Shown: positions 879 through 25,508 of the stretch, piece by piece | Position numbering within the stretch: position 1 is the first letter of the stretch | How the letters are laid out: each line of letters starts with the position of its first letter | DNA from: a virus | Virus record (IMG/VR): IMGVR_UViG_3300030328_003911 | Location: 1 to 25,508 of that record | Direction: 5' to 3' (one strand) | DNA length: 25,508 nucleotides | Notes under the pieces: generated by a model | Database searches by the model: none | Seen by the model: only the letters and a program-made list of their open reading frames with translations | What the model was told of the DNA's origin: nothing | Translations under genes and position numbers: made by a program

Positions 879-1125
879 ACTTGAAAAGGCATTAAAAGAC
901 AAGTTCTTTTGTCCTGCACGATTTGCCCAAGAAATTGAGGGTATGGTTCAAACTAATGATAGTATGAATTACATTGATGCAATAGTTTCCTTTTGTGAAA
1001 ATAATGCTATCGATTTGGAGTCAGTTCCTAAACTTATATCCAAACCTCTTAAAGAAAAAATTAAATACGAAGCACAAGAGTTAAACTTTTTAAAACGCAC
1101 CAGCCGTGCGAAATTGGTTTTTTAA
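868..1125 (+). CDS. 33: Late promoter transcription accessory protein gp33
   Basis: An 85-residue protein starting MENELEKALKDKFF. Residues from about IEGMVQTNDSMNYIDA onward align by eye with T4 gp33 (IEKMVEEFGMSYLEA): both have an acidic helix with FCENNAI/FLEENSI, then a PLKEKIKYEA-like segment equivalent to GIIEKIQSEA. In T4, gp33 is the co-activator that joins RNA polymerase to the sliding clamp for late transcription, working with the late sigma gp55. It fits the TATAAATA late promoters found in this window. The frame is open further upstream to an ATG at 784, but the 868 start is preferred: AGGAG is 6 nt upstream and it overlaps the exonuclease by only 11 bases. It is shorter than T4 gp33 (112 residues) at the N-terminus. 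Order 33-59-(x)-32 matches T4 synteny. Confidence 0.85.
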   Translation: MENELEKALKDKFFCPARFAQEIEGMVQTNDSMNYIDAIVSFCENNAIDLESVPKLISKPLKEKIKYEAQELNFLKRTSRAKLVF

Positions 1126-1126
1126 T

Positions 1127-1178
1127 CCAAAAAAGGGCGAAAAAAGCCTCGCCAAAAAAATCGCCTTATTACTTTTTT
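1127..1178 (+). terminator. A/T-tract hairpin element between genes 33 and 59 (terminator or attenuator-like)
   Basis: Immediately after the gene 33 stop come an A-tract, GGGCGA (1135-1140), then two copies of its complement TCGCC (1149-1153 and 1161-1165), ending in TTATTAC and seven T before the gp59 ATG. GGCGA (1136-1140) can pair with either copy: the near pairing gives a short hairpin with an 8-nt loop; the far pairing brings the stem close to the final T-run, like an intrinsic terminator. The element resembles that at 19684-19734. On the minus strand the near hairpin is followed by CTTTTTT, but no minus-strand gene lies there. Confidence 0.5.
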
Positions 1179-1179
1179 T

Positions 1180-1779: not shown

Positions 1780-2118
1780 ATGAGTTTCTTTAATTCCGAT
1801 ATAGTTAGAGCAGAGATGACTGAAGTTCAAGAGCTTCAGGAAGAGGTCTATTCTAATGTAATGAAGTTTTATTATATGAATGATGCTGACAAAAAACATC
1901 ATATAGAACTTTTGGAAAAACTTATTGAAAAACAGAAAATTATGTATACACGTTTGAGTTTATCAGATGATCCTGAAGCACAAGAAATGAAAGAACAAAT
2001 TCTTTCGTCTGCTGTAATGATGGGTCTTCCAAAAAATATTGATATGACTGTATTTTTTAATCAGATGAGTGAGATGATAAACATGATGAAACAACAACTT
2101 GACATCTCTAAAAATTAA
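1780..2118 (+). CDS. Small conserved cyanophage-type protein (DUF1825-like), between gp59 and gp32
   Basis: A 112-residue, charged, mostly helical protein beginning MSFFNSDIVRAEM and containing YTRLSLSDDPEAQEMKEQI and a Met-rich C-terminal helix (MSEMINMMKQQ). The N-terminal FF-S-x-IV pattern and the central LSDD resemble small cyanobacterial and cyanophage proteins I associate with DUF1825, a family without a settled function; this is from memory and should be checked. It is not gp33, which lies upstream, and does not resemble T4 UvsY. Its place between helicase loader and ssDNA-binding protein suggests a replication-linked role, by context only. The nearest strong ribosome site (AAGGAGG, 1750-1756) is 23 nt from this ATG and better spaced for an ATG at 1766 that encodes only MVVNS and stops overlapping this start. 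Confidence 0.75.
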   Translation: MSFFNSDIVRAEMTEVQELQEEVYSNVMKFYYMNDADKKHHIELLEKLIEKQKIMYTRLSLSDDPEAQEMKEQILSSAVMMGLPKNIDMTVFFNQMSEMINMMKQQLDISKN

Positions 2119-2127
2119 TACTAAAAT
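2099..2127 (+). promoter_or_regulatory. sigma70-type promoter for gene 32
   Basis: Exact TTGACA at 2099-2104, a 17-nt spacer, TAAAAT at 2122-2127 (5 of 6 to consensus). The expected start near 2134 gives a leader of about 40 nt to the gp32 ATG at 2174. The promoter overlaps the end of the previous gene. The strongest -35 box and correct spacing make this a good candidate for host-polymerase early transcription of gp32. Confidence 0.75.
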
Positions 2128-2173: not shown

Positions 2174-3085
2174 ATGTCTTTCGCAAGTCTAAAAAAGCAG
2201 TCGAACTTAGGTTCACTGACTGCCAAGTTAGTCAAAGAAGTAGAAAAAGTTAATAATACTGGTGGGGGTGGAGATGACCGCCTTTGGAAACCAGAACTAG
2301 ATAAAACAGGAAACGGTTATGCCGTAATTAGATTCCTACCTGCACCTGATGGAGAAGAAATCCCTTGGGCAAAACTATATTCACATGCCTTTCAAGGGCC
2401 AGGTGGATGGTATATTGAGAACTCACTAACCACTAATGGTGGTAAAGATCCAGTCTCTGATTACAACAGGGAATTATGGAACAGTGGCAATGAAGCAGAT
2501 AAAGATACGGTTCGTAAGCAGAAACGTAAGTTATCATATTACAGCAACATATATGTTGTAAGAGATCAAGTTAATCCTCAGAATGAGGGTAAAGTATTCT
2601 TATTCAAGTTTGGTAAGAAGATCTTTGATAAGGTTATGGAAGCAATGCAGCCTGAGTTTGAGGATGAAACTCCAATCAATCCTTTTGACTTCTGGCAAGG
2701 TGCAAACTTCAAGTTGAAGATTGTTAAGAAGGATGGATTCTGGAATTATGATAAGTCAGAGTTCGATGCTCCATCACCACTTCTTGATGACGATGATGCA
2801 CTAGAAGCATTATGGAAGAAGCAGTATTCTCTTACTGCTGTTACTGCTCCAGATCAGTTCAAGACTTATGAAGATCTTGAGAAGCGTCTTAAGTATGTTC
2901 TAGGTAAAAAACCTGTTCAACGTCGTGTTGATGAAGAGTTAGAGGGTGAGAGTGAAGGTCGTGGATCTTATGAGGTTGCTGAAAAGACAGTAACACAAGC
3001 AGTATCTACATCACCAGCACCTAAGAGAGTAGATTCTGATGAAGATGATGCTCTATCTTACTTCCAGAAGTTGGCAGAAAGTTGA
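2174..3085 (+). CDS. 32: gp32, single-stranded DNA-binding protein
   Basis: A 303-residue protein (T4 gp32 is 301). Visible regions are a basic N-terminal LAST-like segment (ASLKKQSNLGSLTAKL), the OB-fold core with GWYIEN, LSYYSNIYVVRD, NEGKVFLFKFGKKIFDK and WQGANFKLK, all close to T4 equivalents, and an acidic C-terminal tail (DSDEDDALSYFQKLAES) that in T4 binds partner replication proteins. It coats ssDNA in replication, recombination and repair. His71 matches the T4 zinc ligand His64, but the three cysteine ligands are absent; the T4 ETC position reads ENS here, and the whole protein has no cysteine, so the zinc site is lost. Translation starts at ATG 2174 after CGAGGA. It ends the plus-strand block and converges with gp53. 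Confidence 0.96.
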   Translation: MSFASLKKQSNLGSLTAKLVKEVEKVNNTGGGGDDRLWKPELDKTGNGYAVIRFLPAPDGEEIPWAKLYSHAFQGPGGWYIENSLTTNGGKDPVSDYNRELWNSGNEADKDTVRKQKRKLSYYSNIYVVRDQVNPQNEGKVFLFKFGKKIFDKVMEAMQPEFEDETPINPFDFWQGANFKLKIVKKDGFWNYDKSEFDAPSPLLDDDDALEALWKKQYSLTAVTAPDQFKTYEDLEKRLKYVLGKKPVQRRVDEELEGESEGRGSYEVAEKTVTQAVSTSPAPKRVDSDEDDALSYFQKLAES

Positions 3086-5610: not shown

Positions 5611-6050
5611 TTGATTCCTAACTCATCTTCGGTGACTATTTTAAATTCAATTCTATTATCTTTACAGAATTCAGATGCTGCAGCCCATTTTGCTTGGTTA
5701 ACAGCATAGGTTTGACATTCATAGATATATGATTTAGTTATATTTTTTCTCTTCTTTGGTGGAAGAGTTTGTTTCTTTGGTTTTACTTCAACAACATAAC
5801 TTTTAATTCTATTATTTTTTTCCTTTACTTTAATTAGATAGTCTGGAAAATACTTATGAACACGATTGTCTTTGGGTGAAATATATGGGATACTGAATTC
5901 TTCTGAAGCCCATGAGACTATACTCTTATTCTTATCACACCACTGACAAAACTTTCTCTCCCAACTACTACGACATATTATATTATTGGGATTGCCTTGA
6001 TATTTCTGTGGATTGGATGGTTTATATCGACTCTTAATACTTTCTGCCAT
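5607..6050 (-). CDS. 4: gp4, head completion protein with nuclease-like core
   Basis: A 147-residue protein (T4 gp4 is 150). Signature segments are CRSSWERKFCQWCD, a SWASEEFSIPY stretch, HKYFPDYLI (Pro69-Asp70) and VVEVKPKKQ (Glu88-x-Lys90), which together make a PD-(D/E)XK nuclease-like core. In T4, gp4 and gp50 complete the filled head before the tail joins; a role in trimming or sealing packaged DNA is inferred from the fold. It is the first gene of the minus-strand operon. A perfect late promoter TATAAATA (minus strand, 6091 to 6084) lies 33 nt upstream of its ATG. The stop overlaps the next gene by ATGA. Confidence 0.92.
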   Translation of the reverse strand: MAESIKSRYKPSNPQKYQGNPNNIICRSSWERKFCQWCDKNKSIVSWASEEFSIPYISPKDNRVHKYFPDYLIKVKEKNNRIKSYVVEVKPKKQTLPPKKRKNITKSYIYECQTYAVNQAKWAAASEFCKDNRIEFKIVTEDELGIK

Positions 6051-6083: not shown

Positions 6084-6091
6084 TATTTATA
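6084..6091 (-). promoter_or_regulatory. T4-type late promoter (TATAAATA) for the gp4-gp48-gp53 operon
   Basis: The plus strand reads TATTTATA, giving an exact TATAAATA on the minus strand, 33 nt ahead of the gp4 ATG. This is the T4 late promoter core read by gp55-bound RNA polymerase with gp33. The same DNA reads TATAAATG on the plus strand at 6088-6095, running into the gp54 start codon. Confidence 0.8.
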
Positions 6092-11656: not shown

Positions 11657-12970
11657 ATGGCAAACCAAGTTACATCTAGTGCTTCAAATCCAGCTTTTAT
11701 TACAAAGGCTGATATAACTTCCAATCAAGGTGGTAAAACTGCTGGATTGGTTAATGGAGTGGTTCGTCTTCAGTATTTTGAGAGTATTTTACAAGATACT
11801 ATAAAAGCAACTGTTATATATGCAGATAGTGGAGATTCTGTTGATGGGAAATCTGTAATTGAAGGTCTACCTTTAGTTGGAACAGAAGATTTTAGATTAG
11901 AGTTTGCAGATAATAATGAGAATAAAATTAAGGTAGATTTGAATGTTAATTCAGTTACTCCTATAATGGAAGATGGTATGAAGAATATGATTAGTCTTAA
12001 TTTAGTTTCTGAAGAATTTATTCGCAATGAAGCTGGCACTTCAAGATTAATCCATAGATATGATGGAAAAATTTCAGATCATATTGAAAGTATTGTAAAG
12101 AGTGGAGAAAGATCTTTAAAGACAAAGAAGAAAGTTGATATAGAAACTACTTCTAATGACTATAATTTTATTGGCAATGGTCGTAAACCTTTTTACATAT
12201 TAAATTGGTTATGTAAAAATTCTGTACCAGATGGTGCTGATGATCAGAGTGCAGGATTCTTTTTCTGGGAAACTTCAGATGGAATGCATTTTAAATCTAT
12301 TGATAAATTATTAGAACAGAAACAAAAGAAAGCATTTATTTTTAGTGATTCTCCTGATGGTGAGAAGGGAGTTCCTCCTGGATATGATGGAAAAATATTA
12401 GAGCAGGTATCAAATAATTCTATTAATGCACAACAAAAATTTAATTATGGAGCTTATAATACTAAGTTAGTAGTGTTCAATCCTTTTAATTGTTTTTATG
12501 AGGTTGTAGAACAGAGTGCATCTAATTTACCTACTAATAAACTTGCAGGAAAAGGTCTTCCAAAGTTTAATGAAAAATTTGATAGTGAATACACACGTAC
12601 CACATATATGTTAATTGACACTGGAACTCTACCTTCAGGTTCAACTAAAGAACAATTGGAGAAAAATGAAAAAGAAAATTTCCAAGCAGCAGTAACTCTT
12701 AATCAAGCTATTCGTAGATATAATCAACTCTTCCAACAAATGCAAGAGATTACTATTGCTGGTGATTTTAGTTTACACGCAGGAGATGTAATATATGTTG
12801 ACATTCCTTCTGTTAAAGCATCAAAAGATGATACAGTAAATAAGGAAAGTGGGGGTCTATATATTATAGCTGACTTATGCCACTTAGTGACTGCCGATGG
12901 AACTTGGACTAAGTTGAACTTAGCACGAGATTCATTCGGAAGAAAAGGAAATCACAGCAAGAGGAATTAA
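11657..12970 (+). CDS. 27: gp27-like baseplate central hub protein
   Basis: A 437-residue protein (T4 gp27 is 391). The N-terminal domain is a tube-like beta fold (VNGVVRLQYFESILQDTIKA, VEGLPLVGTEDFRLEF-type strand region, KIKVDLNVNSVTPI, SLNLVSEEFIRNE), the middle has FYILNWLCKNSVP and FFFWETSDGMHFKSIDKLL, and the end has HAGDVIYVDIPSV and GLYIIADLCHLV. These are the features of phage central hub (gp27/gpD) proteins, which form the trimeric ring under the tube and hold the gp5 spike. The gp27 - small gene - gp5 order supports this. The start ATG lies at the end of the intergenic GGAGCTAATTAAGTA ribosome region; it stops 2 nt before the next ATG. Confidence 0.88.
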   Translation: MANQVTSSASNPAFITKADITSNQGGKTAGLVNGVVRLQYFESILQDTIKATVIYADSGDSVDGKSVIEGLPLVGTEDFRLEFADNNENKIKVDLNVNSVTPIMEDGMKNMISLNLVSEEFIRNEAGTSRLIHRYDGKISDHIESIVKSGERSLKTKKKVDIETTSNDYNFIGNGRKPFYILNWLCKNSVPDGADDQSAGFFFWETSDGMHFKSIDKLLEQKQKKAFIFSDSPDGEKGVPPGYDGKILEQVSNNSINAQQKFNYGAYNTKLVVFNPFNCFYEVVEQSASNLPTNKLAGKGLPKFNEKFDSEYTRTTYMLIDTGTLPSGSTKEQLEKNEKENFQAAVTLNQAIRRYNQLFQQMQEITIAGDFSLHAGDVIYVDIPSVKASKDDTVNKESGGLYIIADLCHLVTADGTWTKLNLARDSFGRKGNHSKRN

Positions 12971-12972
12971 TT

Positions 12973-13242
12973 ATGACTACTAAAGTCCCAGAACACGATT
13001 TAAATCATGAATCTTATATTGATCCAAAGGATCACAAAGAGCATGTAAATCATGGTATGATTGAATATAGTGAAGAAGATTTGAAGATGCACAATGATGC
13101 TTTTCATGCTCATGAAGAGAATGAAGAGAATCCTGGTGGTGCTAAGATCAATGATTGGCACACACGCCATGAGGATCAGCACTTAGAAGTGTATTGTGAT
13201 AATCATCCAGATTCATTTGAATGTAGAGTATACGACGATTAA
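12973..13242 (+). CDS. Small acidic His-rich protein with a CP12-like C-terminal tail
   Basis: An 89-residue protein, rich in His, Asp and Glu. Its last 19 residues, LEVYCDNHPDSFECRVYDD (71-89), look like the C-terminal half of cyanobacterial CP12, including the C-x8-C pair (Cys75, Cys84) and the final ECRxYD/ED that binds GAPDH. The central AWDxVEE motif and N-terminal cysteine pair of full CP12 are not present; residues 1-70 instead hold repeated acidic/His segments (YIDPKDHKEHVNHGM, NDAFHAHEENEENPGG). CP12 inactivates GAPDH and PRK, blocking the Calvin cycle, and cyanophages carry CP12 genes, but here the gene is within the baseplate operon, between gp27 and gp5 (TAATG overlap with gp5). 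It could be a virion or assembly protein that has borrowed the tail, or the similarity could be convergent. GAGGA precedes the start. Confidence 0.75.
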   Translation: MTTKVPEHDLNHESYIDPKDHKEHVNHGMIEYSEEDLKMHNDAFHAHEENEENPGGAKINDWHTRHEDQHLEVYCDNHPDSFECRVYDD

Positions 13243-15470
13243 TGGAAGGAACTGCATTATTTAATCCTGGTGTATTGGGGTCTGGCTTTTTGTGGTGGAT
13301 CGGCCAAGTGGCTGATGATTCCACATGGAGAGACAATATAAATGCAGAAGTATTTGATACTCCTGATGAGGTTCCCGCATGGGGATACAGATATAAGGTA
13401 AGAATAATAGGTAATCATGATCAGGAAGAAGCATCAATAACTGCAGAAGAATTACCTTGGGCTCAGGTAATGTATCCTGTGACATCAGGTGGAGGTCAAG
13501 GAGGTTCTTATCAAACTCCTGCAATTAAGCAAGGTAATTTTGTCTTTGGATTCTTTATTGATGGTCAGGATCAACAGGTTCCTGTCATCATGGGTATCCT
13601 TGGTAATAATACCAAGACAAAACTAGAAAGAAAAACTGGAACTGAAGGTAGTGGTGGAAAGAATTTTACACCACAAAGTTTTCATTCTAAAAATCAAGAT
13701 GAAGAACCACCAGAGCAGAAAAAATTAAAGGATGGGGATTTATCACCAACAACTACTAATGTATCTAAAGAGTCATCTGATGCAACTCATCAAGATACAA
13801 CAGCAGGTGAGAAGAAAAGAACGGTATTGACAAGAAAACATGCATTAGCATGTCCAGATCCAAATAGAAAGTCTGATATGAAAAATATTCAGACAGTGGT
13901 AGAGACATTAAGTGAAAAGATACAGCAGTTTCAAAAGTCAATGCAAGATGCAAATGTTGCTGCTGGTTTACCTATAGTACAAGCAGAGAAGAGTATTGAT
14001 GCTGCCATTGAAACTGCATCCGAAGAGATTTCAAAATATATGAAAGGTATTATGGGTCAGGTGCAGCAATTTACGACTAAAGAATTTAATGAGAAGTTAG
14101 CACCTATAGATAACCTAGCTCCTCCTTCTCATAGTCTTGCTATAATGAAAGAGAAGGTTGCTGGTCTTGAGAAAATTGCATGTATGTTTAATGGCATGAT
14201 GGGGTCTGCATTAGTAGGATTAATTGCAGCTGCATTAAAAAATATTTTTAAGAAGAGACAGAAAGAATCTAAAGTAGCAAATCCTACAATAACTGGTAGT
14301 CTCGTTGGTCTTACTACTGCAATAGGATCTACAAGATTTAATCCCAATACAGGAGAACTTGAAACTTTTGTTCGAGTTGGTGATAGTGGAGTATGGGAAG
14401 AGAATACTGAACCAGTTCAAACTCAACTTGATACTCCAGGATCGGATATTATTAGAGCACTTCCACCAGAAGGATATTATATTCCAACTCCATTATGTGC
14501 AACAGAAGAATTAGTTGGTCAAATAATAGGAGAGACTATTAATACAGTTATGAAGGGGTTTGATGATGCAATTGGCCCTGTTGTGAATGAAGTTAAGATT
14601 GCAATAGGTGGATCTTCTACCGATTCTGGTTCAGATGATAGTGGTAGTATTGATAATTCTATTAATGAAAATACTGTTCTTGCTGCATTAGGATCTGGAG
14701 ATCTTATTAGGTCTATCACTGAATCAATGGCAGAGGAATCTGGTGCTGATCCTACTAAGATTGGAGGTGTAGTTGCTCCTTGGCAGAATGGAGATTATTC
14801 TACAGGATTATCTAAACTTATGGATCTTTCTGGTAAAGGTAATGCAACACTTATTGCTAGTGCAATCGCTTTGATAAATGATAAAGGTAATCCTAATGGA
14901 ATTCTTGAAGGTTTTTCATCTGTAGCTAATATTTTAGGTGTGAATCCAGCATTGATGTCTGGTGCTGGTCTTGCTTTTGCAGCAATTAGAACAGGTGATA
15001 TACCTAAACTTGTTAATGGAGTTGGTGGACTTGCTTCATTCTTTCCAAAAGTTTTAGGTTCAATTGTTGGTGAAGGATCTTCTCTTGCAGGTGCAGCAGC
15101 AGGTGGTTTAGGTATAGGAGCACTTGGTGGAATGAATTTTGATATTGGATCTGCACTTGGATTTGTTGGATCTATCACACAAATTTTTAATTGTGATCCT
15201 AAAGCATCTTGTTCACCTAATGATACTCATACAATGCAAGCAGGTGGTGGTGATGGAGGAGCTCCAAGTTTTGCATCAGTTGCTGAATCTGCAAAGAATA
15301 CTGCTACGTCAGCAAAAGGTGTTAGTAAGACCTTAGCTGAACGTCGTTCTGAAACTTCTATAAGAAATAAAAATTTATCTCAAGCAGAAATTAAAGCTAA
15401 GATAAATGAAGAGAAGAAAGTAACTAAAACTTATAAAGTTCCAAAAGGAACTGGAGGTAATTTCTTATAA
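13242..15470 (+). CDS. 5: gp5-like baseplate hub protein without lysozyme domain
   Basis: A 742-residue protein. The N-terminal OB-fold is clear: GFLWWIGQVADDSTWRDN, WGYRYKVRIIGNHDQE, LPWAQVMYPVTSGGGQGG, and GNFVFGFFIDGQDQQVPVIMG, as in gp5/VgrG proteins that seat on gp27. After a Lys/Glu/Ser linker come helical segments (about 210-290), an Ala/Gly region and a long Gly/Ala-rich hydrophobic C-terminal part (about 500-670). I see no T4-lysozyme catalytic pattern or V-x-G beta-helix repeats, so the lysozyme domain and spike helix of T4 gp5 are missing; the 184-residue gene downstream may supply the spike part. The C-terminal hydrophobic region may touch the membrane, which is inference. TAATG overlaps at both ends suggest tight coupling. 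Confidence 0.87.
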   Translation: MEGTALFNPGVLGSGFLWWIGQVADDSTWRDNINAEVFDTPDEVPAWGYRYKVRIIGNHDQEEASITAEELPWAQVMYPVTSGGGQGGSYQTPAIKQGNFVFGFFIDGQDQQVPVIMGILGNNTKTKLERKTGTEGSGGKNFTPQSFHSKNQDEEPPEQKKLKDGDLSPTTTNVSKESSDATHQDTTAGEKKRTVLTRKHALACPDPNRKSDMKNIQTVVETLSEKIQQFQKSMQDANVAAGLPIVQAEKSIDAAIETASEEISKYMKGIMGQVQQFTTKEFNEKLAPIDNLAPPSHSLAIMKEKVAGLEKIACMFNGMMGSALVGLIAAALKNIFKKRQKESKVANPTITGSLVGLTTAIGSTRFNPNTGELETFVRVGDSGVWEENTEPVQTQLDTPGSDIIRALPPEGYYIPTPLCATEELVGQIIGETINTVMKGFDDAIGPVVNEVKIAIGGSSTDSGSDDSGSIDNSINENTVLAALGSGDLIRSITESMAEESGADPTKIGGVVAPWQNGDYSTGLSKLMDLSGKGNATLIASAIALINDKGNPNGILEGFSSVANILGVNPALMSGAGLAFAAIRTGDIPKLVNGVGGLASFFPKVLGSIVGEGSSLAGAAAGGLGIGALGGMNFDIGSALGFVGSITQIFNCDPKASCSPNDTHTMQAGGGDGGAPSFASVAESAKNTATSAKGVSKTLAERRSETSIRNKNLSQAEIKAKINEEKKVTKTYKVPKGTGGNFL

Positions 15471-16459
15471 TGCCAATATCACCAACTTCATTTGATAATA
15501 TTACAGTAGGGTATATTACTGAGACTGAGGGATATATTCATGATGTATCTCTTGCAGATGCTAATACATATGCAGAAACGAATCCAGATACTACGTTTAT
15601 TTTTCTTGATGGAGATTCAAAGATTCGTTATTTGGATATTGATGGAGTTAATAGTTTAACTCCTAAAGATCTGTTGAGGAAGGATCCATGTATTACTGGT
15701 GAGCAACCTTGTGGCCCACCAATAGTTAAATTTTTTGGTGGTCATGGTGTAGGAGCACAGGGAAATCCTGTTGTTGATGAAGATGGAAACTTGATTGCTG
15801 TTGATCTTGTGAGTGGTGGTTTTGGTTATAAAGAACCACCTCAAGTTGAAGTTACTGATCCATGTAAGAATGGAACTGGTGCTTTTTTTGATACTGTTAT
15901 TAAAGATGGTGAAGTTATTAAAGTTATTCCTATTGATAGTGGTACTGGATATCTTCCACCTCCACAAACCGTTCCACAATATCCTGCTATTCTTACGATT
16001 ACAGATATTGTTGTAACTGATCCTGGATTTAATTATAATTGTGGAGTGGATCAATTGACAATTACTCCGACTAATGGTACACTATTGTCTTATACATGTG
16101 ATCCGTTTGGTAAGATAAAATCAGTTAGTGTTGATAAAGGGGGAAGATTTACTCGTCTTCCAAAAATAATGATGGATACTGAGTCTGGTTTTAATGCTAA
16201 ATTTGTTCCTGTCTTTGATATAATTCGTGATCCTCAACCAATTGAACCAGTTATATTGGATGTTGTTCAGGTATTTGATTTGGTTGGTTTAAATATTAAT
16301 GGATATGTTGATGGTAAGGAGTATTATGGAAATACTTATTTCATTGATGGAGTGAAGTATGCAGGTACTGATTCTAATAACGGAACTGATATTCAAGTCT
16401 TTGATAATAGGGCAGACAGTATCAAAGGTTCAGTTAAAGGTGATGAAATTCTCCAATAA
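15470..16459 (+). CDS. Putative virion structural protein with four GxGYxxPP-type beta repeats
   Basis: A 329-residue protein. Residues 105-235 hold four related units, each a short 'DG-x-I/V-xx-V' strand then a glycine-rich turn: VDLVSGGFGYKEPPQVEV, VIPIDSGTGYLPPPQTV, IVVTDPGFNYNCGVDQL, VSVDKGGRFTRLPKIMM. Such 'Gly-x-Gly-Tyr-x-x-Pro-Pro' units recur in tail and fibre proteins of T4-like marine phages; similar ones are in the 1894-residue protein downstream (NSGSAYGSG, NPGSAYGIG). N-terminus: NITVGYITETEGYIHDVS; C-terminus: YVDGKEYYGNTYFIDGVKY. It follows gp5 by a TAATG overlap and precedes a spike-like gene, so it is probably a baseplate or spike-associated component. The exact role is unknown. 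Confidence 0.7.
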   Translation: MPISPTSFDNITVGYITETEGYIHDVSLADANTYAETNPDTTFIFLDGDSKIRYLDIDGVNSLTPKDLLRKDPCITGEQPCGPPIVKFFGGHGVGAQGNPVVDEDGNLIAVDLVSGGFGYKEPPQVEVTDPCKNGTGAFFDTVIKDGEVIKVIPIDSGTGYLPPPQTVPQYPAILTITDIVVTDPGFNYNCGVDQLTITPTNGTLLSYTCDPFGKIKSVSVDKGGRFTRLPKIMMDTESGFNAKFVPVFDIIRDPQPIEPVILDVVQVFDLVGLNINGYVDGKEYYGNTYFIDGVKYAGTDSNNGTDIQVFDNRADSIKGSVKGDEILQ

Positions 16460-16469
16460 GGTTTAAACT

Positions 16470-17024
16470 ATGGCACAGAAGAGAAATTTTTGGACACAAG
16501 TTTGGAGCTCTATGAATGGAGCGATAACTTTTGGTGGTTTGAGCCCATTTAAAGATGTAACTTCAAGTGTTGAACTTAAAGGTATGGATGGTCGTCACTT
16601 CTTTGCTTTTGAGGAGGATGGAATTCGTAAAAATTATACATCAATGAATACTCCTGGTGCTACCATTATGCATACAGGAGAAGATCTGAAGAAGGAGGAG
16701 GAAGCATTTGTTATTCTGGCAGAGAATGGAGACATTCAACTCAAGGCAGCAAATGGAAAGATTCGTATTGAAGGATTAGATATTGAATTTGTTGCTACAG
16801 GTAACGCTCCAGAAGGAGTTCTTTGGGCAAAAGCAAACGAGACCTTGAAACTTGACTCAAAAAATGTTACAATAGATGGTAAGCAATCCACTAAAATTAT
16901 AAGCACAGGTTTAATAACTATTGCTGGTGGATTATCAACTCAAATCTTTACACCATTCTTAGAAGGTGTAAGTGCTGCAACAGTTAAAAAAGCATTACCA
17001 AATCCAGGAACAGTAAATTCGTAA
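16470..17024 (+). CDS. Spike-like beta-helical baseplate protein
   Basis: A 184-residue protein. After an N-terminal region with FFAFEEDGIRKNY, residues 85-155 form a run of short strands of the spike type: GDIQLKAANGKIRIEGLDI, then KANETLKLDSKNVTIDGKQS and TKIISTGLITIAGG. Phage spike and VgrG C-termini build triple beta-helices from such repeats, so this may be a detached gp5 C-terminal spike or a gp5.4-like tip; I cannot tell which. No His-containing tip motif stands out. A 10-nt gap from the previous gene with AAGG, and an AAGGAG before the next gene, suggest one co-expressed late tail block. Confidence 0.6.
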   Translation: MAQKRNFWTQVWSSMNGAITFGGLSPFKDVTSSVELKGMDGRHFFAFEEDGIRKNYTSMNTPGATIMHTGEDLKKEEEAFVILAENGDIQLKAANGKIRIEGLDIEFVATGNAPEGVLWAKANETLKLDSKNVTIDGKQSTKIISTGLITIAGGLSTQIFTPFLEGVSAATVKKALPNPGTVNS

Positions 17025-17033
17025 GGAGCAATT

Positions 17034-17837
17034 ATGGCATTTTCATTCGATGAAGTATTTGTATGGGGAGGACAATTAGTTAATAGTGCAAAAAAACTAG
17101 TTCCTCAAGCATTAGGTGTAGGTAATGAAAAAGTAGATCATACTACATATCTTCAAGGTAATACACAGATTGGAAAGGTCGATGCTTTTTCATCTGCTAA
17201 TGCAACTTTGATGGTAGGTAGAGAAGATACCATTGGAACAAATCGTTCATTGTTTGTGAAGGGTAATGCTATGATTGAAGGTGATGGTGGTTCTGGTAAA
17301 GACTCCGTGTATGTTGTTGGTGATATGTATGTCACTGGTGCTGTTGATTGTCTTTCTAAGGGTAGATTGGAATCAAGACATAAAACAGCAGATGGTAAAC
17401 CAAAACCATTTGATATACAACATCCTACAAAAGGAGAAGGTCACAGACTTCGTTATGCATGTATTGAGGGCCCAGAAGTTGGTGTATATTGTAGAGGTAG
17501 GGTAAGAAATGAGAAGATAATAAAATTACCAGATTATTGGAAAGATCTTGTAGATGTTGAAAGTATTTCTGTTCAACTTCAACCTATCGGTGCTCATCAA
17601 GATGTAATTATAAAAAGATGGGATGCAGAAACTATACATCTTCAAGCACAAGGTGGATTACCTGTTAATTGTTTTTATCATGTTTATGCATCAAGGAAGG
17701 ATGTTAATCCATTACATGTAGAATATGAAGGCAAGGATTGTTTTGATTATCCTGATCCAAATTATGGTGTTGATGTAGAAAATCCAGTGTATAATGATCC
17801 ACAGTATGCACCAAGGAGAAATATAATTACTATATGA
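17034..17837 (+). CDS. Tail-fibre-like structural protein
   Basis: A 267-residue protein. The N-terminal half has beta strands like fibre shafts (YLQGNTQIGKVDAFSSANATL, SLFVKGNAMIEGDGGSG, SVYVVGDMYVTGAVDC). Residues 124-157 carry a motif of phage tail-fibre and virion proteins: KPFDIQHPTKGEGHRLRY then ACIEGPEVGVYCRGRV. The last part is rich in Tyr, Asp and Pro (FDYPDPNYGVDVENPVYNDP). It probably forms part of a fibre or collar attached to the baseplate or spike; no enzymatic motif is seen. AAGGAG with ATG 17034 gives a clear ribosome site, and the stop overlaps the first oxygenase gene (ATGA). Confidence 0.65.
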   Translation: MAFSFDEVFVWGGQLVNSAKKLVPQALGVGNEKVDHTTYLQGNTQIGKVDAFSSANATLMVGREDTIGTNRSLFVKGNAMIEGDGGSGKDSVYVVGDMYVTGAVDCLSKGRLESRHKTADGKPKPFDIQHPTKGEGHRLRYACIEGPEVGVYCRGRVRNEKIIKLPDYWKDLVDVESISVQLQPIGAHQDVIIKRWDAETIHLQAQGGLPVNCFYHVYASRKDVNPLHVEYEGKDCFDYPDPNYGVDVENPVYNDPQYAPRRNIITI

Positions 17838-18331
17838 AGAAATTGATTTATATTGAGGAGAATTTTATATCTCCTAGTGAATCTCAAGAACTAATAGAAC
17901 TTTCTAAATCAAATAAAGAAGAACTTCCTTATGGTGATGAGAGTAGGGGTGGAAATACATACCTTACAACTCTTGATGGGATTTATTTTGAGAAAGAAAA
18001 AAATAATGTAGTTGAGAGGGTAACTAATCTCTGTAAGACTTTTGATGATAGAGTTATTATAGATTATGCAGGTGTGGTAAGGTGGCCTGTTGGCACCTTT
18101 ATGAAACCTCATATCGATCCACATAGACCTGATCAAGAACCTGATTTGTTTGCAGCAGTTCTTTATTTAAATGATGATTATATTGGAGGTTATACTGGAT
18201 TTGAAGAGTGTGAAGTTAAACCAGAGACAGGGAAATTACTTGTTTTTTCTAATTCAATTTACAAACATCATGTTACTAAGATTGAAGGAACAGAAAGATT
18301 TGCTCTTAATATATGGTATAACCAAAAATGA
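17834..18331 (+). CDS. 2OG-Fe(II) oxygenase A (prolyl-hydroxylase-like)
   Basis: A 165-residue single-domain protein with the jelly-roll dioxygenase signature: KPHIDPH (His93, Asp95), a strand LFAAVLYLNDDYIGGYTGF, and a second His in YKHHV (His145 by the usual HxV pattern) with Arg155 for 2-oxoglutarate. These residues bind Fe(II) and 2-oxoglutarate in prolyl/lysyl hydroxylases. It is small, without a clear substrate-binding extension, so the substrate is unknown; a virion protein (fibre proline, lysine or asparagine) is an inference from its position. It overlaps the fibre-like gene and the next oxygenase by ATGA junctions, so all are co-translated. It shares the core with its neighbour, indicating tandem duplication. 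Confidence 0.88.
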   Translation: MKKLIYIEENFISPSESQELIELSKSNKEELPYGDESRGGNTYLTTLDGIYFEKEKNNVVERVTNLCKTFDDRVIIDYAGVVRWPVGTFMKPHIDPHRPDQEPDLFAAVLYLNDDYIGGYTGFEECEVKPETGKLLVFSNSIYKHHVTKIEGTERFALNIWYNQK

Positions 18332-18918
18332 AAAAATTACTTTATCTTGAAGAGGAGTTTTTAAATCCTTCTTTATGCAAATCTTTTATTGATCTTCATG
18401 TTAATAAAAATGACACTTTTTTAGAAGCAGTAACACATTCAAATTCTGATGAGAGTTTAACTTATGGCCCTGATATACCAGAACCAGATGGTGATTATGG
18501 TGCAATTTATTTGGGTGGAGATGTGACTCCCTTAGATATTGAATTATCAAAGGATGAACTTTTTTCTAATGTTATTGCAAATGTAACTAAAATTTGTAAA
18601 TCATTTCATAATAATATACAGTTAGATTATTGTGGTGTTATACGATGGCCTACTGGCACATTTATGAAACCTCATTATGATAAGTCTGAAATGTATAGCC
18701 CAAATGTTCTTGCAGCATTTCTTTATTTGAATGATGATTATATTGGCGGACATACTCAATTTGATAATTTAGATGAAAGTGTGTGGCATGATGTAAAACC
18801 AAAAACAGGTAAATTGTTAATATTTTCTAATAGAGAGTATTTACATCATGTGAGTAAGGTTGAATCGGGAACTAGATACGTTTTATCGTTTTGGTTTAAT
18901 GCCCACGTATCGTCATAA
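18328..18918 (+). CDS. 2OG-Fe(II) oxygenase B, tandem paralogue
   Basis: A 196-residue protein with the same fold markers: KPHYDKS (His116, Asp118), LAAFLYLNDDYIGGHTQF, KPKTGKLLIFSN, LHHVSKV (His173 by HxV) and Arg183. The N-terminal MKKLLYLEEEFLNPS is almost that of oxygenase A (MKKLIYIEENFISPS). It differs by an insertion of about 30 residues around 30-75 (VTHSNSDESLTYGPDIPEPDG) that could shape substrate choice. The Fe(II) and 2-oxoglutarate residues are intact, so it should be active. The gene starts at ATGA with the previous stop and its end overlaps the sulfotransferase-like gene by 20 bases. Confidence 0.88.
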   Translation: MKKLLYLEEEFLNPSLCKSFIDLHVNKNDTFLEAVTHSNSDESLTYGPDIPEPDGDYGAIYLGGDVTPLDIELSKDELFSNVIANVTKICKSFHNNIQLDYCGVIRWPTGTFMKPHYDKSEMYSPNVLAAFLYLNDDYIGGHTQFDNLDESVWHDVKPKTGKLLIFSNREYLHHVSKVESGTRYVLSFWFNAHVSS

Positions 18919-19459
18919 AGAAACGGGAAAAAGATTTTTCTTTATTCATATTCCTAGAACTGCTGGTAGGTTCTTACAAGAAAATATAAAACAAAATGGG
19001 TTTGAGCCTGAGCAAAAGATATGGAAAACAATTGATGGTGTAGAGATTACTCATTTACATAGAGAATTGTATGAAAAAGATTTAGATGTGGGAGGTATTC
19101 CTCATATTTCTATTGTAAGAGATCCATTGGAGAGATATTTGTCATTATATTCCTATCCATATCACCCAAAAGGATGGTTTAGACCACAAGTTGACTATAT
19201 TACAGATAATACTCATATTTGGTATTTTGAGAATGGATTTGATAATGATTTTTCCAATTGGTTGAGTTCTATATTAAAAATGGAGTTTAATGTAAAAGAA
19301 TTAAATTCAAATTACATACATAATGAACTAGGGCAAAGACTTATTTTAGAATATATGGATCCTGATTATAAAAAGAATGAAAAGAGTGTTGAAGATGAAG
19401 AATATGTAAGAAATTTTTATAAACTTGACTATTTGCGGTGGTCGAGGTATAATATATGA
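18899..19459 (+). CDS. Sulfotransferase-like protein
   Basis: A 186-residue protein with the two PAPS-site motifs of the sulfotransferase family: FFFIHIPRTAGRFL (residues 13-26, 5'-phosphosulfate loop) and SIVRDPLERYLSLYS (71-85, 3'-phosphate binding). The usual Lys in IPKTAGTS is Arg20 here and the following Thr-Ser is changed to Arg-Phe, which leaves activity in doubt. It is short and lacks a membrane anchor. If active it would move sulfate from PAPS to a glycan or tyrosine; the substrate is unknown. A longer version from TTG 18860 is possible, but ATG 18899 is preferred because it gives a 20-base rather than 59-base overlap. Its 3' end contains a sigma70-type promoter, and its stop overlaps ATG 19456. 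Confidence 0.72.
   Translation: MPTYRHKETGKRFFFIHIPRTAGRFLQENIKQNGFEPEQKIWKTIDGVEITHLHRELYEKDLDVGGIPHISIVRDPLERYLSLYSYPYHPKGWFRPQVDYITDNTHIWYFENGFDNDFSNWLSSILKMEFNVKELNSNYIHNELGQRLILEYMDPDYKKNEKSVEDEEYVRNFYKLDYLRWSRYNI
19425..19453 (+). promoter_or_regulatory. Strong sigma70-type promoter within the end of the sulfotransferase gene
   Basis: TTGACT (19425-19430), a 17-nt spacer, and exact TATAAT (19448-19453), giving 11 of 12 consensus bases. The expected start near 19460 lies just before AAGGG (19467-19471) and ATG 19477, so promoter, ribosome site and start codon are ordered for the small gene that follows. Confidence 0.75.
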
Positions 19460-19476
19460 GTATGATAAGGGCTTGG

Positions 19477-19680
19477 ATGGACGAAGAGTATTTAATGAAG
19501 TGTGTGGTGGATCCACTCAAGAAAACTTTTTACTTATATTCCAATGAAGGGGATACTAAGGAGGTGGTTTGTGATAATACAGAACAGTTTATGAATGTGT
19601 TGGAACTAGTACGTGCTACGTGTCCAGAAGATAGGTTAGTGTATACAGAACCATTAACTTCAGAGGAGGCTAGCTTTTAA
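19477..19680 (+). CDS. Small protein with its own promoter and terminator, unrecognised function
   Basis: A 67-residue protein (MDEEYLMKCVVDPLKKTFYLYSNEG... ending PLTSEEASF) with a likely alpha/beta fold: strand TFYLYSNEGDTKEVVCD, helix EQFMNVLELVRATCP, strand RLVYTEP. No known domain is recognised. The frame is open from ATG 19456 (74 residues, ATGA overlap with the previous gene), but I choose 19477: a sigma70-type promoter would start transcription near 19460, AAGGG sits 5 nt before 19477, and the upstream ATG would then be lost. Read-through late transcripts could still use 19456. A hairpin plus T-run follows the stop. The unit looks like a separately expressed early or constitutive gene inserted in the late tail region. 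Confidence 0.72.
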   Translation: MDEEYLMKCVVDPLKKTFYLYSNEGDTKEVVCDNTEQFMNVLELVRATCPEDRLVYTEPLTSEEASF

Positions 19681-19683
19681 TTT

Positions 19684-19734
19684 CAAAAAAGTCGGGAAAA
19701 AAACTCCAGGTATTTTTTGCCCTATTAGTTTTTT
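19684..19734 (+). terminator. Intrinsic-terminator-like hairpin, related to the element at 1127-1178
   Basis: GGG (19694-19696) pairs with CCC (19720-19722), and after one A/G mismatch six A (19698-19703) pair with six T (19713-19718), loop CTCCAGGTA; then TATTAG and a T-run (19729-19735). An A-tract precedes the stem. The order AAAAAA-G-rich-AAAAAA-C-rich-TATTAGTTTTTTTAT matches the gp33/gp59 element. It should end transcription of the small gene before the late promoter that begins at 19735. Confidence 0.6.
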
Positions 19735-19742
19735 TATAAATA
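19735..19742 (+). promoter_or_regulatory. T4-type late promoter (TATAAATA) for the large tail gene
   Basis: An exact TATAAATA 34 nt before ATG 19777, overlapping the end of the T-run of the terminator-like element. As in T4, transcription would start about 6 nt past the box, leaving a leader of about 28 nt. It matches the minus-strand late promoter upstream of gp4. Confidence 0.85.
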
Positions 19743-19776
19743 TCTAAAAGTAATAATCGGCATTGGAAGAATAAAC

Positions 19777-22700
19777 ATGGGTTTATCCAGATTAGAGAAT
19801 TTCTTAAAAAATGTTCGTGGAAATATCTTGTACGTAAGTCCAAATGATTTGGATTCGACGGATAGTATCGATAATAAGGGAAATTCATTAACACGTCCTT
19901 TTAAGACCATTCAAAGGGCTTTGATTGAGGCATCTAGATTTTCATATCAGCAAGGTCTCAATAATGATCGATTTGCACAGACAACAATACTTCTTTATCC
20001 AGGAGATCATGTAATTGATAATAGGCCAGGATATATACCTGATGGTTCTGGGAATTTTAGAGATAGATTTGGATCAACTACTACTGATTTTAGTGCATGG
20101 GATTTAACAACTAATTTTGATTTAGGAAACTCCAATAATGCTTTATATAAGCTTAATAGTATACATGGTGGTGTAATTGTTCCTCGTGGAACATCAATTG
20201 TTGGTATGGATCTCAGAAAGACAAAGATCCGTCCTAAGTATGTTCCAAACCCATTAAATGATAATGTTGAAAGATCTGCAATATTCCGTGTAACTGGTGC
20301 ATGTTATTTCTGGCAATTCTCTATATTTGATGCTGATCCTAATGGAAAGGTTTTCTTAGATTATACTGAAAATCAATATGTTCCTGATTTTTCACACCAT
20401 AAACTGACTGCATTTGAATATGCTGATGGTGTAAACAAAGTAAGTATTAATGATAATAACCAGACATGGGGTTCTAATACAAGAACTGATCTGGATATGT
20501 ATTATGAAAAGGTTGGTCTTGTATATGGAGTTACTTCTGGTCGTCAGATTGAACCAGATTACCCATCAACTGGATTAGACATTCAAGCGAAGATTGATGA
20601 ATATCGTATTGTTGGCCCTACAGCAGGTTCTGTAGGTATTAGTAGTATTAAGGCAGGTGATGGTTCAACTTCATCAACAATAATAACTGTTACAACAAGT
20701 TCTTCTCTTACTGGTGCAGATGTTGATACTGCTGTTAAGATTTCTGGTATTACGGCAACAGGGTATGATGGTCAGTTTTTAATTACTGATAAGATAAGTG
20801 ATACGGTATTTAAGTATTCTGTAGAAAATGCTCCATCCAATGCACTTCCATCTGTATCGGGATCAACTGCAGCACTGAATATTGATACTGTTACTTCTGC
20901 ATCACCATATATCTTTAACTGTTCCTTGAGATCAGTTTATGGTATGTGTGGTTTGCTTGCTGATGGTAACAAGGCATCAGGATTTAAATCTATGGTTATT
21001 GCCCAGTTTACGGGTATTGGATTGCAGAAGGATAATAATGCATTTGTTAAGTATAATGCAAGTACTGGAACATATAATGATGGAACTACAAGTGGAAATG
21101 AAAGTTTAAATACTGATTCAAGAGCAACCTTTAAACCAACATATAACAATTTCCATATTAAAGCAATTAATGATGCAACAATTCAAGCAGCATCAGCATT
21201 TGCTATTGGTTATGCAGAACATTTCTCTGCTGATACTGGTGGTGATATGTCTATCACCAACTCTAACTCAAATTTTGGTGCAAAAGCCTTAGTTTCTGCT
21301 GGATTTAAGAAAGAAGCATATTCTCAAGATGATATAGGATATATCACTCATATTATTCCACCAAAAGAGTTTCCATCTACACAAAAAACAATTGAATTTG
21401 ATGCTCTTGATATTACAAACTCTATAGGTATTGGAACGACATCTGAACGTTTATATTTAAAAGGTCTTACTAATCCATCTGTAAAACCAGAGAATGTTCT
21501 AGATGGATATCGTATTGGTGCAGGAACTTCTGATACACTTAATGTATTAATACCAATTTCAGCAGGTGTTACTTCAGAATTTAGTTCTCGTATTGTAATG
21601 GAGGGTAATGATACTCAAGATGGTATTCCTCATACTCCTTCAAGTGGTGAGAAGAGTTATGATGTTAATAGAAGTGCTGCAGGTATTAATAGTATTACAA
21701 GCAATCAAATTGAATTAACATCAGCACATACTTTTACTAATGGAGAAAGTGTTCGAGTTATTAGTTCTAATGGAGTTCTTCCTGATGGAATTGAATCAAA
21801 TAAGGTATACTATGCAGTTAGTTCTGGAGTAGGTACTAATATTGGATTAAAACTTGCTAAAACTTTCACTGATGCTGAAAATGCAAATGTATTAACTATT
21901 AATAATCTTGGTGGTCCTTTAAAGATTGTAAGTAGAGTATCTGATAAGAATTCTGGTGATCTTGGTCATCCAATTCAATATGATAGTGCAAGTAAAAATC
22001 AATGGTATATTAATGTTGGTGTTGATACATCTAATGGAAAGGATGCAATATGGCCATATTTCGTTGATCAAGGAACATCAGTATTAGGAACTGCTTCTCC
22101 TCGAACATATATTAAGAGAAAATCTGATGAGAGAGATGCTGTTGATACAATCTATCGTGTAAGATATGTTGTTCCATCTTCATCTGGTGTATCAGTAGGA
22201 AGACCACCTACAAGTGGATATATTCTTCAGGAATCTAATGCTACAATTGGTATTACAACGACTGAAGTTGAAACATATTATGGAACTGAGAATTTAGCTA
22301 ATGTTAATCAACAGAGAAACTTTAGATTAATTTCAAATGCTAATTGGACATCAGATACTAATCCAGATTCTGCAAGAATTTTAACAGAACAACCACATGA
22401 TTTGTCTGTAGGTTCTCTGGTTGAAATTGCTAATGTTAAGAGTAGTGTTAATGCTACTGGAGCTGGTAATTCTGGATATAATGGAACTTTCCCAGTTATT
22501 GGTATTAGTAGTGCAAGAGAATTTACTGTTGGAGTTAGAACTGATCCTGGTACATTTACCTTTATTGAAACTATTACTAGGAATACAGCACTTCCATACT
22601 TTAAGAGAAAGAATTATAGTAAAACATATTATATACAAGATTCAGAAGAAGTTCAAGAGTATGTTAGTGGAAAACAAGATGGTATTTACTATCTAACGGT

Positions 22701-25461
22701 ATTAAATTCATCTGTTGCTCCTAGTGTAGCACCGTTTACTGATGAGAAGTTTACTCAACCAGTCAAATATCTTTATCCTCAAGTTAATCGTGATAATCCT
22801 GTTGCTGATCCAGAATCAACAACATCTCATGCTACTTCAAGTTTAATTGGTGATGTTAGTGTAGATGATGTAAGAAAGAGTCTTACAAAAGAAACAATTG
22901 ATAGTATTGTTGCTGATACTGGTATTGGTATTGGAATTACAGAAATTGTAACATCTGTTGGTATTAATACTTCAGGAGTTGTACCTGGAAATAGTACAAC
23001 TGGTTTAAGTACAGGTCAACAGAAAATGCCTGTTGGCACTTATAATTACCCATTATCCAAAGTTCATACAATTCATACTGACATCGATCATGGATTTAAT
23101 GGTATTAAGCAAGTTAGTATTGCAAATAGTGGTTCTGCTTATGGATCTGGTAGTGCTTCCGATGAAACTTATTATACTGCGGAATTATTAAATTTAACAG
23201 AATATCCTTCACAGGTTGTTGATGGTCAATCTGTATATACTGGATTCTCAACTACTGGTAAACATGCTACTGCAAAAGTAAAAGTAGATAAACATGGTGG
23301 TGGTATTACTGAGATAATTATTGTCAATCCAGGTAGTGCATACGGTATTGGTAATACCTTATATGTTGCTGGTATTGGAACAACTACTACTGTTAATAGT
23401 GTTGCAGTTCGTCATAATGCTGCTAAGATTTCAGTCACTCAGATCCATAATAATATTGGTGATACCATTAGAATAAGTGGTCTTACTTCTGAATCTTATA
23501 ATCAATATAATGACTATTATCGTATTACAGATGTTTGGGTAGGTGCAGCAAAGAGTTTTAGTGTCGTTGGTAATAATCAGGTAACTGGTGTTTCGACAGC
23601 TGGAATAGGATCAATAGTAACTGCTAATGCAACTCTGCATAGAACTGGTGTGGGTATGGCTGTAAGTTCCTTTGATTATAGTACAACAACAGGAATTGCA
23701 ACTATTGGTGTTAGTGTTGCTTCTAGTATATCTCTTGGTCATGGATTGGATGTTAACTCTAAAGTAATAGTTGCTATTTCTACTGGTATTGGTCATACAG
23801 ATACTTCAGGTTGGCCTGGAAATAGTGTAAATGAAGATGCTCAATACTTTGTTGGAAGTCATGTAGTTACTAAGATTAAGAGTTGGAAACAATTTGAAAT
23901 TAATGTAGGTACATCAGCAACTACAAAAAATGGATCAATTTCAGTAGGTTCTTCAGTATATGTGATGAATCAAGGATTTGCATCAAATGATGGATTACCA
24001 ACTATAGATGATGAGGGTTTCCGTTCTAGAATGATTCCAATTTATGATGGTATTACTGCTCCTACTGAAGGTGCAATGACAAAGACTCAAACAACAATGA
24101 ATTTTGTTGCTATGGGAACAACAGAGCAGTATGGTTTTGAAATTGGAGATTATCTTCAAGTTGATGATGAAATAGTTAGAGTTAAAAATAAAATTACCAC
24201 AGTTGCTACTGGAGTAGGTACAATACCTAAAGCTTATCTTGATACTCTTGGACCACTAACAGTTTATCGTGCATGTCTTGGAACAAAAGCAGCAACTCAT
24301 ATTAATGCCTCACTTGCTCGTAAGATCAAACCACTACCTGTTGAATTAAGAAGACATTCAATTAACAGAGTTGCGGGTCATACATTTGAATATGTTGGAT
24401 TTGGGCCAGGAAACTACTCAACTGCACTTCCAGAGAAGCAAGATCGTACTATTTCTGATACTGAAGAAATTATAGGTCAGTCAATTAGAAAGAATGGTGG
24501 TATTAACTACTTCACTGGTATGAATGATAAGGGTATCTTCTACTCAGGTAATAAGAAGATAAATTCTGTTACTGGTAAAGAAGAAGTCTTTAACACTCCA
24601 ATCAGAAGTGTTACTGGTGAAGATATCTCTGTTAAGAAGGGAATTAATCTTGTTAAAGCAACTGAAGGTGACTTCTCACAATCTATTAAGATTGATGGTG
24701 GTGATCAAGGTAAGGCAATCTCTGAATTTAAAGGCCCTGTAGTCTTTAGTAATAAAGTAACTTCATCATCCTCTAAGGGTCTTGAAGCAACATCATTATT
24801 CTTACAAGGAGATGCAACAGTTTCCAGAAAATATACAGTTGGAATTTCTACTCCTACAGATTCTGGGACTCCAGGTGATGTTTCATTTGCTCAGAACCCA
24901 CAAGGTGGTAAGTATCTTGGATGGGTCTATACAACTGATAATGCTTGGAAGAGATTTGGTAGTATAAGCACTGATTCAAATTATGATTATTACACTGTTA
25001 ATAAACTAAAAGTTTCTGGCTCTCGTGGTAATAATTATCTAACTATTATTAATACCACTGCAAGTGATTCTAATCAAGAAAGATTTTCAAAAATAGTATT
25101 TAGAGGAATACAAAGTGGTGGAGAGGAAAGCACTCTTGCTTCTATAGTATCTCATCATGAAGGAAGTGCTGATGATCAAAAAGGTGAACTTATATTCCAA
25201 ACTAATGATGGTAGTGATGATGATACACCAACAGAAGCACTTCGTATATCTGGATTTGGCTCACTTGGTATAGGAACTGTGGCTCCAAGATGTACTCTTG
25301 ATCTTGCTGAAGGTGCTCCAGCAGGTATTAATACTTTTGTAATTTTACCAAAGGTTAGTACTACGGTTGGTTTAGGCACAACTGCAGGTGCAATTATGTT
25401 TAATACCACTACAAGTAAGTTCCAAGGATTTACTGGAGCAGCATGGGTTGATCTGCATTAA
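19777..25461 (+). CDS. Giant virion structural protein (tail fibre/baseplate-type)
   Basis: A 1894-residue protein. The N-terminal ~230 residues look like a beta-helix/pectin-lyase-type start: ILYVSPNDLDSTDSIDNKG (17-35), RPFKTIQRALIEASRFS, TTILLYPGDHVID and GGVIVPRGTSIVGMDLRKT. This start is typical of large T4-like cyanophage tail proteins. The middle is beta-rich with Gly/Ser/Thr-rich modules and units such as VSIANSGSAYGSG and IIIVNPGSAYGIG, related to those of the 329-residue protein. The C-terminus has a fibre motif (LGIGTVAPRCTLDL) and an end GTTAGAIMFNTTTSKFQG... AAWVDLH common in tail fibres; there is no S74 chaperone signature. It likely forms a fibre or wedge-attached appendage that contacts the host; T4 counterpart unclear. 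Its own late promoter precedes it. Confidence 0.8.
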   Translation: MGLSRLENFLKNVRGNILYVSPNDLDSTDSIDNKGNSLTRPFKTIQRALIEASRFSYQQGLNNDRFAQTTILLYPGDHVIDNRPGYIPDGSGNFRDRFGSTTTDFSAWDLTTNFDLGNSNNALYKLNSIHGGVIVPRGTSIVGMDLRKTKIRPKYVPNPLNDNVERSAIFRVTGACYFWQFSIFDADPNGKVFLDYTENQYVPDFSHHKLTAFEYADGVNKVSINDNNQTWGSNTRTDLDMYYEKVGLVYGVTSGRQIEPDYPSTGLDIQAKIDEYRIVGPTAGSVGISSIKAGDGSTSSTIITVTTSSSLTGADVDTAVKISGITATGYDGQFLITDKISDTVFKYSVENAPSNALPSVSGSTAALNIDTVTSASPYIFNCSLRSVYGMCGLLADGNKASGFKSMVIAQFTGIGLQKDNNAFVKYNASTGTYNDGTTSGNESLNTDSRATFKPTYNNFHIKAINDATIQAASAFAIGYAEHFSADTGGDMSITNSNSNFGAKALVSAGFKKEAYSQDDIGYITHIIPPKEFPSTQKTIEFDALDITNSIGIGTTSERLYLKGLTNPSVKPENVLDGYRIGAGTSDTLNVLIPISAGVTSEFSSRIVMEGNDTQDGIPHTPSSGEKSYDVNRSAAGINSITSNQIELTSAHTFTNGESVRVISSNGVLPDGIESNKVYYAVSSGVGTNIGLKLAKTFTDAENANVLTINNLGGPLKIVSRVSDKNSGDLGHPIQYDSASKNQWYINVGVDTSNGKDAIWPYFVDQGTSVLGTASPRTYIKRKSDERDAVDTIYRVRYVVPSSSGVSVGRPPTSGYILQESNATIGITTTEVETYYGTENLANVNQQRNFRLISNANWTSDTNPDSARILTEQPHDLSVGSLVEIANVKSSVNATGAGNSGYNGTFPVIGISSAREFTVGVRTDPGTFTFIETITRNTALPYFKRKNYSKTYYIQDSEEVQEYVSGKQDGIYYLTVLNSSVAPSVAPFTDEKFTQPVKYLYPQVNRDNPVADPESTTSHATSSLIGDVSVDDVRKSLTKETIDSIVADTGIGIGITEIVTSVGINTSGVVPGNSTTGLSTGQQKMPVGTYNYPLSKVHTIHTDIDHGFNGIKQVSIANSGSAYGSGSASDETYYTAELLNLTEYPSQVVDGQSVYTGFSTTGKHATAKVKVDKHGGGITEIIIVNPGSAYGIGNTLYVAGIGTTTTVNSVAVRHNAAKISVTQIHNNIGDTIRISGLTSESYNQYNDYYRITDVWVGAAKSFSVVGNNQVTGVSTAGIGSIVTANATLHRTGVGMAVSSFDYSTTTGIATIGVSVASSISLGHGLDVNSKVIVAISTGIGHTDTSGWPGNSVNEDAQYFVGSHVVTKIKSWKQFEINVGTSATTKNGSISVGSSVYVMNQGFASNDGLPTIDDEGFRSRMIPIYDGITAPTEGAMTKTQTTMNFVAMGTTEQYGFEIGDYLQVDDEIVRVKNKITTVATGVGTIPKAYLDTLGPLTVYRACLGTKAATHINASLARKIKPLPVELRRHSINRVAGHTFEYVGFGPGNYSTALPEKQDRTISDTEEIIGQSIRKNGGINYFTGMNDKGIFYSGNKKINSVTGKEEVFNTPIRSVTGEDISVKKGINLVKATEGDFSQSIKIDGGDQGKAISEFKGPVVFSNKVTSSSSKGLEATSLFLQGDATVSRKYTVGISTPTDSGTPGDVSFAQNPQGGKYLGWVYTTDNAWKRFGSISTDSNYDYYTVNKLKVSGSRGNNYLTIINTTASDSNQERFSKIVFRGIQSGGEESTLASIVSHHEGSADDQKGELIFQTNDGSDDDTPTEALRISGFGSLGIGTVAPRCTLDLAEGAPAGINTFVILPKVSTTVGLGTTAGAIMFNTTTSKFQGFTGAAWVDLH

Positions 25462-25469
25462 TCTTTTTG

Positions 25470-25477
25470 CATAAATA
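25470..25477 (+). promoter_or_regulatory. Late-promoter-like CATAAATA at window end, leader of next gene
   Basis: CATAAATA differs from the late consensus only at the first base and lies 8 nt after the stop of the giant gene. An AGGGGGAG ribosome-like site (25487-25494) follows, so the remaining ~45 bases look like a leader of a gene that starts beyond or at the window end. A GTG at 25496 is too close to that site to call. Confidence 0.35.
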
Positions 25478-25508
25478 ATAAAAAATAGGGGGAGAGTGAA
25501 CCCGAAAT

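Follow-up and report, generated by a model that had tools for sequence, protein, structure and literature searches.

In the 25.5-kb IMG/VR virus record analyzed here (the window, 25,508 nucleotides at full length), which carries T4-like gp33, gp59, gp32 and tail genes, a 67-codon gene lies between a sulfotransferase-like gene and a tail fibre gene (Table 1). The original prediction described it as a cassette of the 'moron' type, with promoter, ribosome site and terminator of its own, and this raised the question of whether the gene is an extra one inserted between late genes or a regular part of the phage's transcription programme.

Identity and Distribution of the Gene

The predicted ORF was confirmed on the sequence, with an ATG at 19477, 67 codons and a TAA stop at 19678–19680. 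The PF23966 profile matched it with 76.4 bits (curated cut-off 27) over residues 8–67, which identifies it as a member of DUF7294, a family already known from T4-like cyanophages. The homologues in P-SSM2 (PSSM2_032), P-HM2 (PHM2_028), P-HM1 and S-SM2 (SSM2_021) are annotated as T4-GC 29, and gp21 of Syn9 is another named homologue. A profile search of 18 cultured T4-like cyanophages found DUF7294 in 14 of them, from several genera and including Syn9 and Syn19, and did not find it in S-SSM7, Syn1, S-PM2 or S-RSM4. The cyanophage T4-GC 29 homologues showed clear homology to the window gene and occupied the same place, and the position of the locus in relatives was stable, 3′ of the gp5 region and 5′ of the fibre genes. 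The gene stands alone in the window and in P-SSM2, whereas the copies of Syn9, Syn19 and S-SM2 head a series of small genes and tRNAs. No mention of DUF7294 was found in the literature searched.

Table 1. Positions of the features discussed, numbered along the window.
Feature	Position	Strand	Remarks
gp33 promoter, TTGACA-17-TATATT	784–812	+	ATG at 868
gp33, late-promoter co-activator	868–1125	+	phrog_254, 5.4e-29
Second copy of 3′ element	1120–1179	+	gp33–gp59 interval
gp32 promoter, TTGACA-17-TAAAAT	2099–2127	+	ATG at 2174
gp32, single-strand DNA-binding protein	2174–3085	+	phrog_224, 3.2e-125
Sulfotransferase-like gene	18899–19459	+	phrog_3347, 9.6e-18; final codons contain the DUF7294 promoter
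−35 hexamer, TTGACT	19425–19430	+	TTGACA in most relatives
−10 hexamer, TATAAT	19448–19453	+	ends 23 nt 5′ of ATG 19477 (21–26 nt in most relatives)
Alternative in-frame extension of 7 codons (ATG 19456)	19456–19476	+	unexpected on a transcript from the DUF7294 promoter
AAGGG, Shine-Dalgarno-like	19467–19471	+	in 1 of 48 unique relatives
DUF7294 gene	19477–19680	+	67 aa; PF23966, phrog_662, T4-GC 29
3′ element, terminator-like, CTTTTAAT-TYC-AAAAAAG ... CTATTASTTTTTT	19674–19735	+	
Late promoter of fibre gene, TATAAATA	19735–19742	+	42 nt before fibre ATG
Tail fibre gene	19777–25461	+	T4-GC 30 / phrog_529

By the description in PMC6814406 (citing Juhala 2000 and Hendrix 2000), morons are genes that carry a promoter of their own and take no part in the lytic cycle. 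A true moron would here be a recently acquired gene that was inserted, together with its promoter and terminator, between late genes; it would be an additional gene that relatives lack at this site, and atypical in base composition. Like morons, DUF7294 has its own promoter (established by conservation rather than by mapping) and a 3′ signal, and lies amid genes belonging to a different class; its upstream neighbours vary and four of the cultured phages are without it. Unlike morons, it belongs to a T4-like phage and is widespread, has the base composition of its surroundings (GC 0.377 vs. 0.348 for the window) and is regulated in the same way as gp33 and gp32 (see below). Comparison of the same position in relatives, which had been proposed as a check for presence or absence of the cassette, showed a gene that stays between the gp5 region and the fibres while its neighbours move. 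A moron in the strict sense is thus improbable, and DUF7294 appears to be a long-established, widespread gene of marine cyanophages and not a recent addition.

Conservation of the Promoter

The predicted TTGACT-17-TATAAT sequence was present within the end of the sulfotransferase gene. It matched 11 out of 12 bases and was the best plus-strand match across positions 12000–25508. Three plus-strand sites with 11/12 bases were found in the window compared to 0.8 expected from shuffles, and the overall count of weaker promoter-like sites was below expectation. Judged from the window alone, such a site is weak evidence in an AT-rich genome and not compelling; it is its conservation in relatives that indicates that the promoter is real.

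Of 84 loci, 68 had a promoter with at least 10/12 bases upstream of the ATG at codon 8 (19477), with almost constant spacing, compared to 1.8% of random positions and 2.5% of ORF starts used as controls. Among cultured phages, Syn9, Syn19, S-SM2 and S-SKS1 showed 12/12 bases and P-HM1, P-HM2, S-ShM2, P-SSM7 and Syn33 showed 10–11/12; the promoter was displaced in P-RSM4, and P-SSM2 contained the gene without such a promoter. A footprint alignment of 52 sequences, for which the −10 box was the sole anchor and sequences more than 80% identical upstream had been removed, showed a conservation of 0.94 bits for the −35 box and 1.43 bits for the −10 box, compared to 0.31 for the spacer and 0.10 for the upstream sequence, and a TG preceding the −10 box emerged. 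As expected for a sigma-70 promoter, the hexamers were conserved with a spacer of 16–18 nt, the sequence of which was not conserved. Early promoters of this type in T4-like phages have the same form, TTGACA-17-TATAAT, often with TG before the −10 box. On the evidence of the alignment, conserved hexamers around a variable spacer are the footprint of function.

The genes upstream of DUF7294 fell into approximately 17 unrelated groups. The promoter had been suggested to have arisen at its present position or along with the sulfotransferase; as it remains constant while the upstream gene families change, it instead belongs to DUF7294, and the sulfotransferase end came to overlap it. That the gene has a host-polymerase-type promoter of its own, in a unit distinct from the flanking late genes, was supported by comparison with relatives.

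Start Codon

Further in-frame ATGs are located at 19456 and 19462, the former overlapping the stop codon of the sulfotransferase gene (ATGA). It could be argued from this overlap that the promoter is accidental and that DUF7294 is a normal late-operon gene translationally coupled to the sulfotransferase via the ATGA, a reading that would also suit the codon-like variation in residues 1–7 and P-SSM2, where DUF7294 lacks the promoter and directly precedes the fibre gene. However, the promoter is kept beside unrelated upstream genes, and the upstream gene usually stops approximately 48 nt before the equivalent of ATG 19477, so that the overlap is not general. We regard this reading as highly improbable.

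Transcription from the DUF7294 promoter is predicted to start around 19460. Only 2 nt separate the end of the −10 box from ATG 19456, and a start near 19460 would leave this ATG off the transcript, which supports ATG 19477 as the start codon; distant relatives start at the equivalent of ATG 19477. The AAGGG that had been proposed as the ribosome site was private to the window sequence and unconserved (Table 1).

In close relatives, the seven codons preceding ATG 19477 varied mainly at third positions, so read-through transcripts may yield a longer product. The preferred reading of an early unit could accordingly be refined to dual expression, in which ATG 19477 would give rise to a short form early and a late read-through transcript to a form of 74 residues starting at ATG 19456. 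This would agree with codon 1 remaining ATG or GTG in close relatives; however, the −10 box ends just 2–4 nt before codon 1, distant phages have no ATG at the position equivalent to 19456, and the variation test comprises seven codons only. We consider this refinement rather unlikely.

Signals Shared with gp33 and gp32

The plus-strand 11/12 promoters of the window were found solely ahead of gp33, gp32 and DUF7294. Across the loci fetched, a promoter with at least 11/12 bases preceded gp33 in 47/53 (89%), gp32 in 38/53 (72%) and DUF7294 in 61/91 (67%) of the cases, compared to 0–3% for the other genes tested.

The 3′ element following DUF7294 was also found downstream of gp33 in the window (Table 1), but not after the window gp32. 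Its ends and length were highly conserved, with 31 ± 1 nt between the anchors. An IMG/VR search gave, among the matches listed, at least 77 sites with a preceding gene, this gene being gp33 at 39, DUF7294 at 21, gp32 at 15 and another gene at 2 sites, each count being a lower bound. The possibility that the element is a random mobile repeat was rejected, since 75 of these 77 listed sites followed just three gene families. In many marine viral contigs, an element of approximately 51 nt (CCAAAAAAG ... CTATTACTTTTTT) was seen 3′ of gp33, gp32 and DUF7294.

The gene family, the conservation of the promoter and the possession of both ends in common with gp33 and gp32 are demonstrated by these comparisons. 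Two independent signals, promoter and 3′ element, thus tie DUF7294 to gp33 and gp32, which are pre-late genes in T4, and the promoter class and 3′ element common to the three genes suggest that DUF7294 belongs to the same pre-late regulon. The gp33 product is known to act in late transcription and that of gp32 in replication, whereas no role has been assigned to DUF7294.

In the cultured phage S-SM2, gp33 has both the promoter and the 3′ element. In Syn9, Syn19 and S-SM1, gp33 was seen without either. Regulation of gp33 thus appears to differ between cyanophage groups.

The 3′ Element and the Late Promoter

A hairpin with a T-run had been predicted at the 3′ end of the gene. A T-rich and strongly conserved 3′ element is indeed present, but the hairpin in the window is weak (−8.4 kcal/mol, z −0.47) and was not found by a terminator scan. 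A clear hairpin followed by a U-run was detected in some relatives, e.g., S-SM2 and the loci L021, L057 and L070. RNAalifold returned no consensus pairs for the element, covariation of its arms was marginal (12/500 permutations) with none in the distal arm, and an Rfam search of positions 19300–19900 gave no match. In some relatives further genes follow DUF7294 with no visible terminator between.

Termination is the likeliest role of the element, because it accompanies the gene on its upstream side and has a late promoter or a new gene behind it. Its sequence was conserved beyond the needs of a plain terminator. A more far-reaching possibility, which we consider doubtful, is that CCAAAAAAG, about 30 nt and CTATTACTTTTTT together form an undescribed cis-acting signal that does more than a simple hairpin terminator and indicates where the units of a small pre-late regulon (gp33, gp32 and DUF7294) end, with DUF7294 as third regulatory or replication partner of the other two.

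The late promoter that had been predicted to follow the cassette was located as TATAAATA, the sole plus-strand copy in the window, which begins at the final T of the T-run of the 3′ element. As expected for a T4 late promoter, it precedes a late gene, i.e., the fibre gene. The other TATAAATA in the window is on the minus strand at 6084, just upstream of minus-strand genes beginning at 6050. Late consensus sequences like TATAAATA were noted in cyanophage S-PM2 in a review of T4 late transcription (PMC2988020).

Proposed Transcription Unit

Very probably, the locus is a one-gene early or middle transcription unit that a T4-like marine cyanophage carries between late genes. Host RNA polymerase with the housekeeping sigma factor would initiate around 19460 and produce a short mRNA with a leader of approximately 17 nt, on which translation from ATG 19477 would yield the DUF7294 protein of 67 residues. 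All or part of this transcription would stop at the 3′ element, the T-run of which abuts a gp55-type late promoter that would restart transcription for the fibre gene. DUF7294 would form part of a pre-late regulon with gp33 and gp32; in some relatives it also heads a set of small genes and tRNAs. Its own conserved host-type promoter and shared 3′-end signal make early switch-on probable, although the gene lies among late tail genes. T4-like early units usually cluster; this predicted early unit differs in being isolated within late genes.

These results point to pre-late expression of an abundant, uncharacterised marine cyanophage gene alongside the late co-activator gp33 and the replication protein gp32. 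They also define a 3′ signal common to the three genes, which is open to testing in phages that can be cultured, and indicate that an early unit can be retained inside a late region while the adjacent genes are swapped.

The DUF7294 Protein and Neighbouring Genes

The fold of DUF7294 is predicted to be small and common (strand-strand-strand-helix-strand; pLDDT 81, pTM 0.62). Foldseek ranked FtsH periplasmic N-domains at the top (E 0.024), none of its matches reaching E ≤ 0.001, and VIA-align gave ribosomal large-subunit chains first (Z approximately 6) and FtsH domains at Z of approximately 3.9–4.7. Scores of this size are usual for common arrangements, so no function was drawn from either program. 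Sequence-profile matches in PDB were designed 'Cake' propellers and were treated as noise, PADLOC gave no match, and NCBIfam gave sub-threshold noise only. The strong matches were to uncharacterised cyanophage proteins only. The likeliest guess, and a tentative one, is that DUF7294 is a small takeover or regulatory protein.

In the window, two adjacent 2OG-Fe(II) oxygenase-like genes (PF13640; 17834–18918) precede the sulfotransferase gene, and in relatives the gene upstream of DUF7294 was often of this oxygenase-like type.
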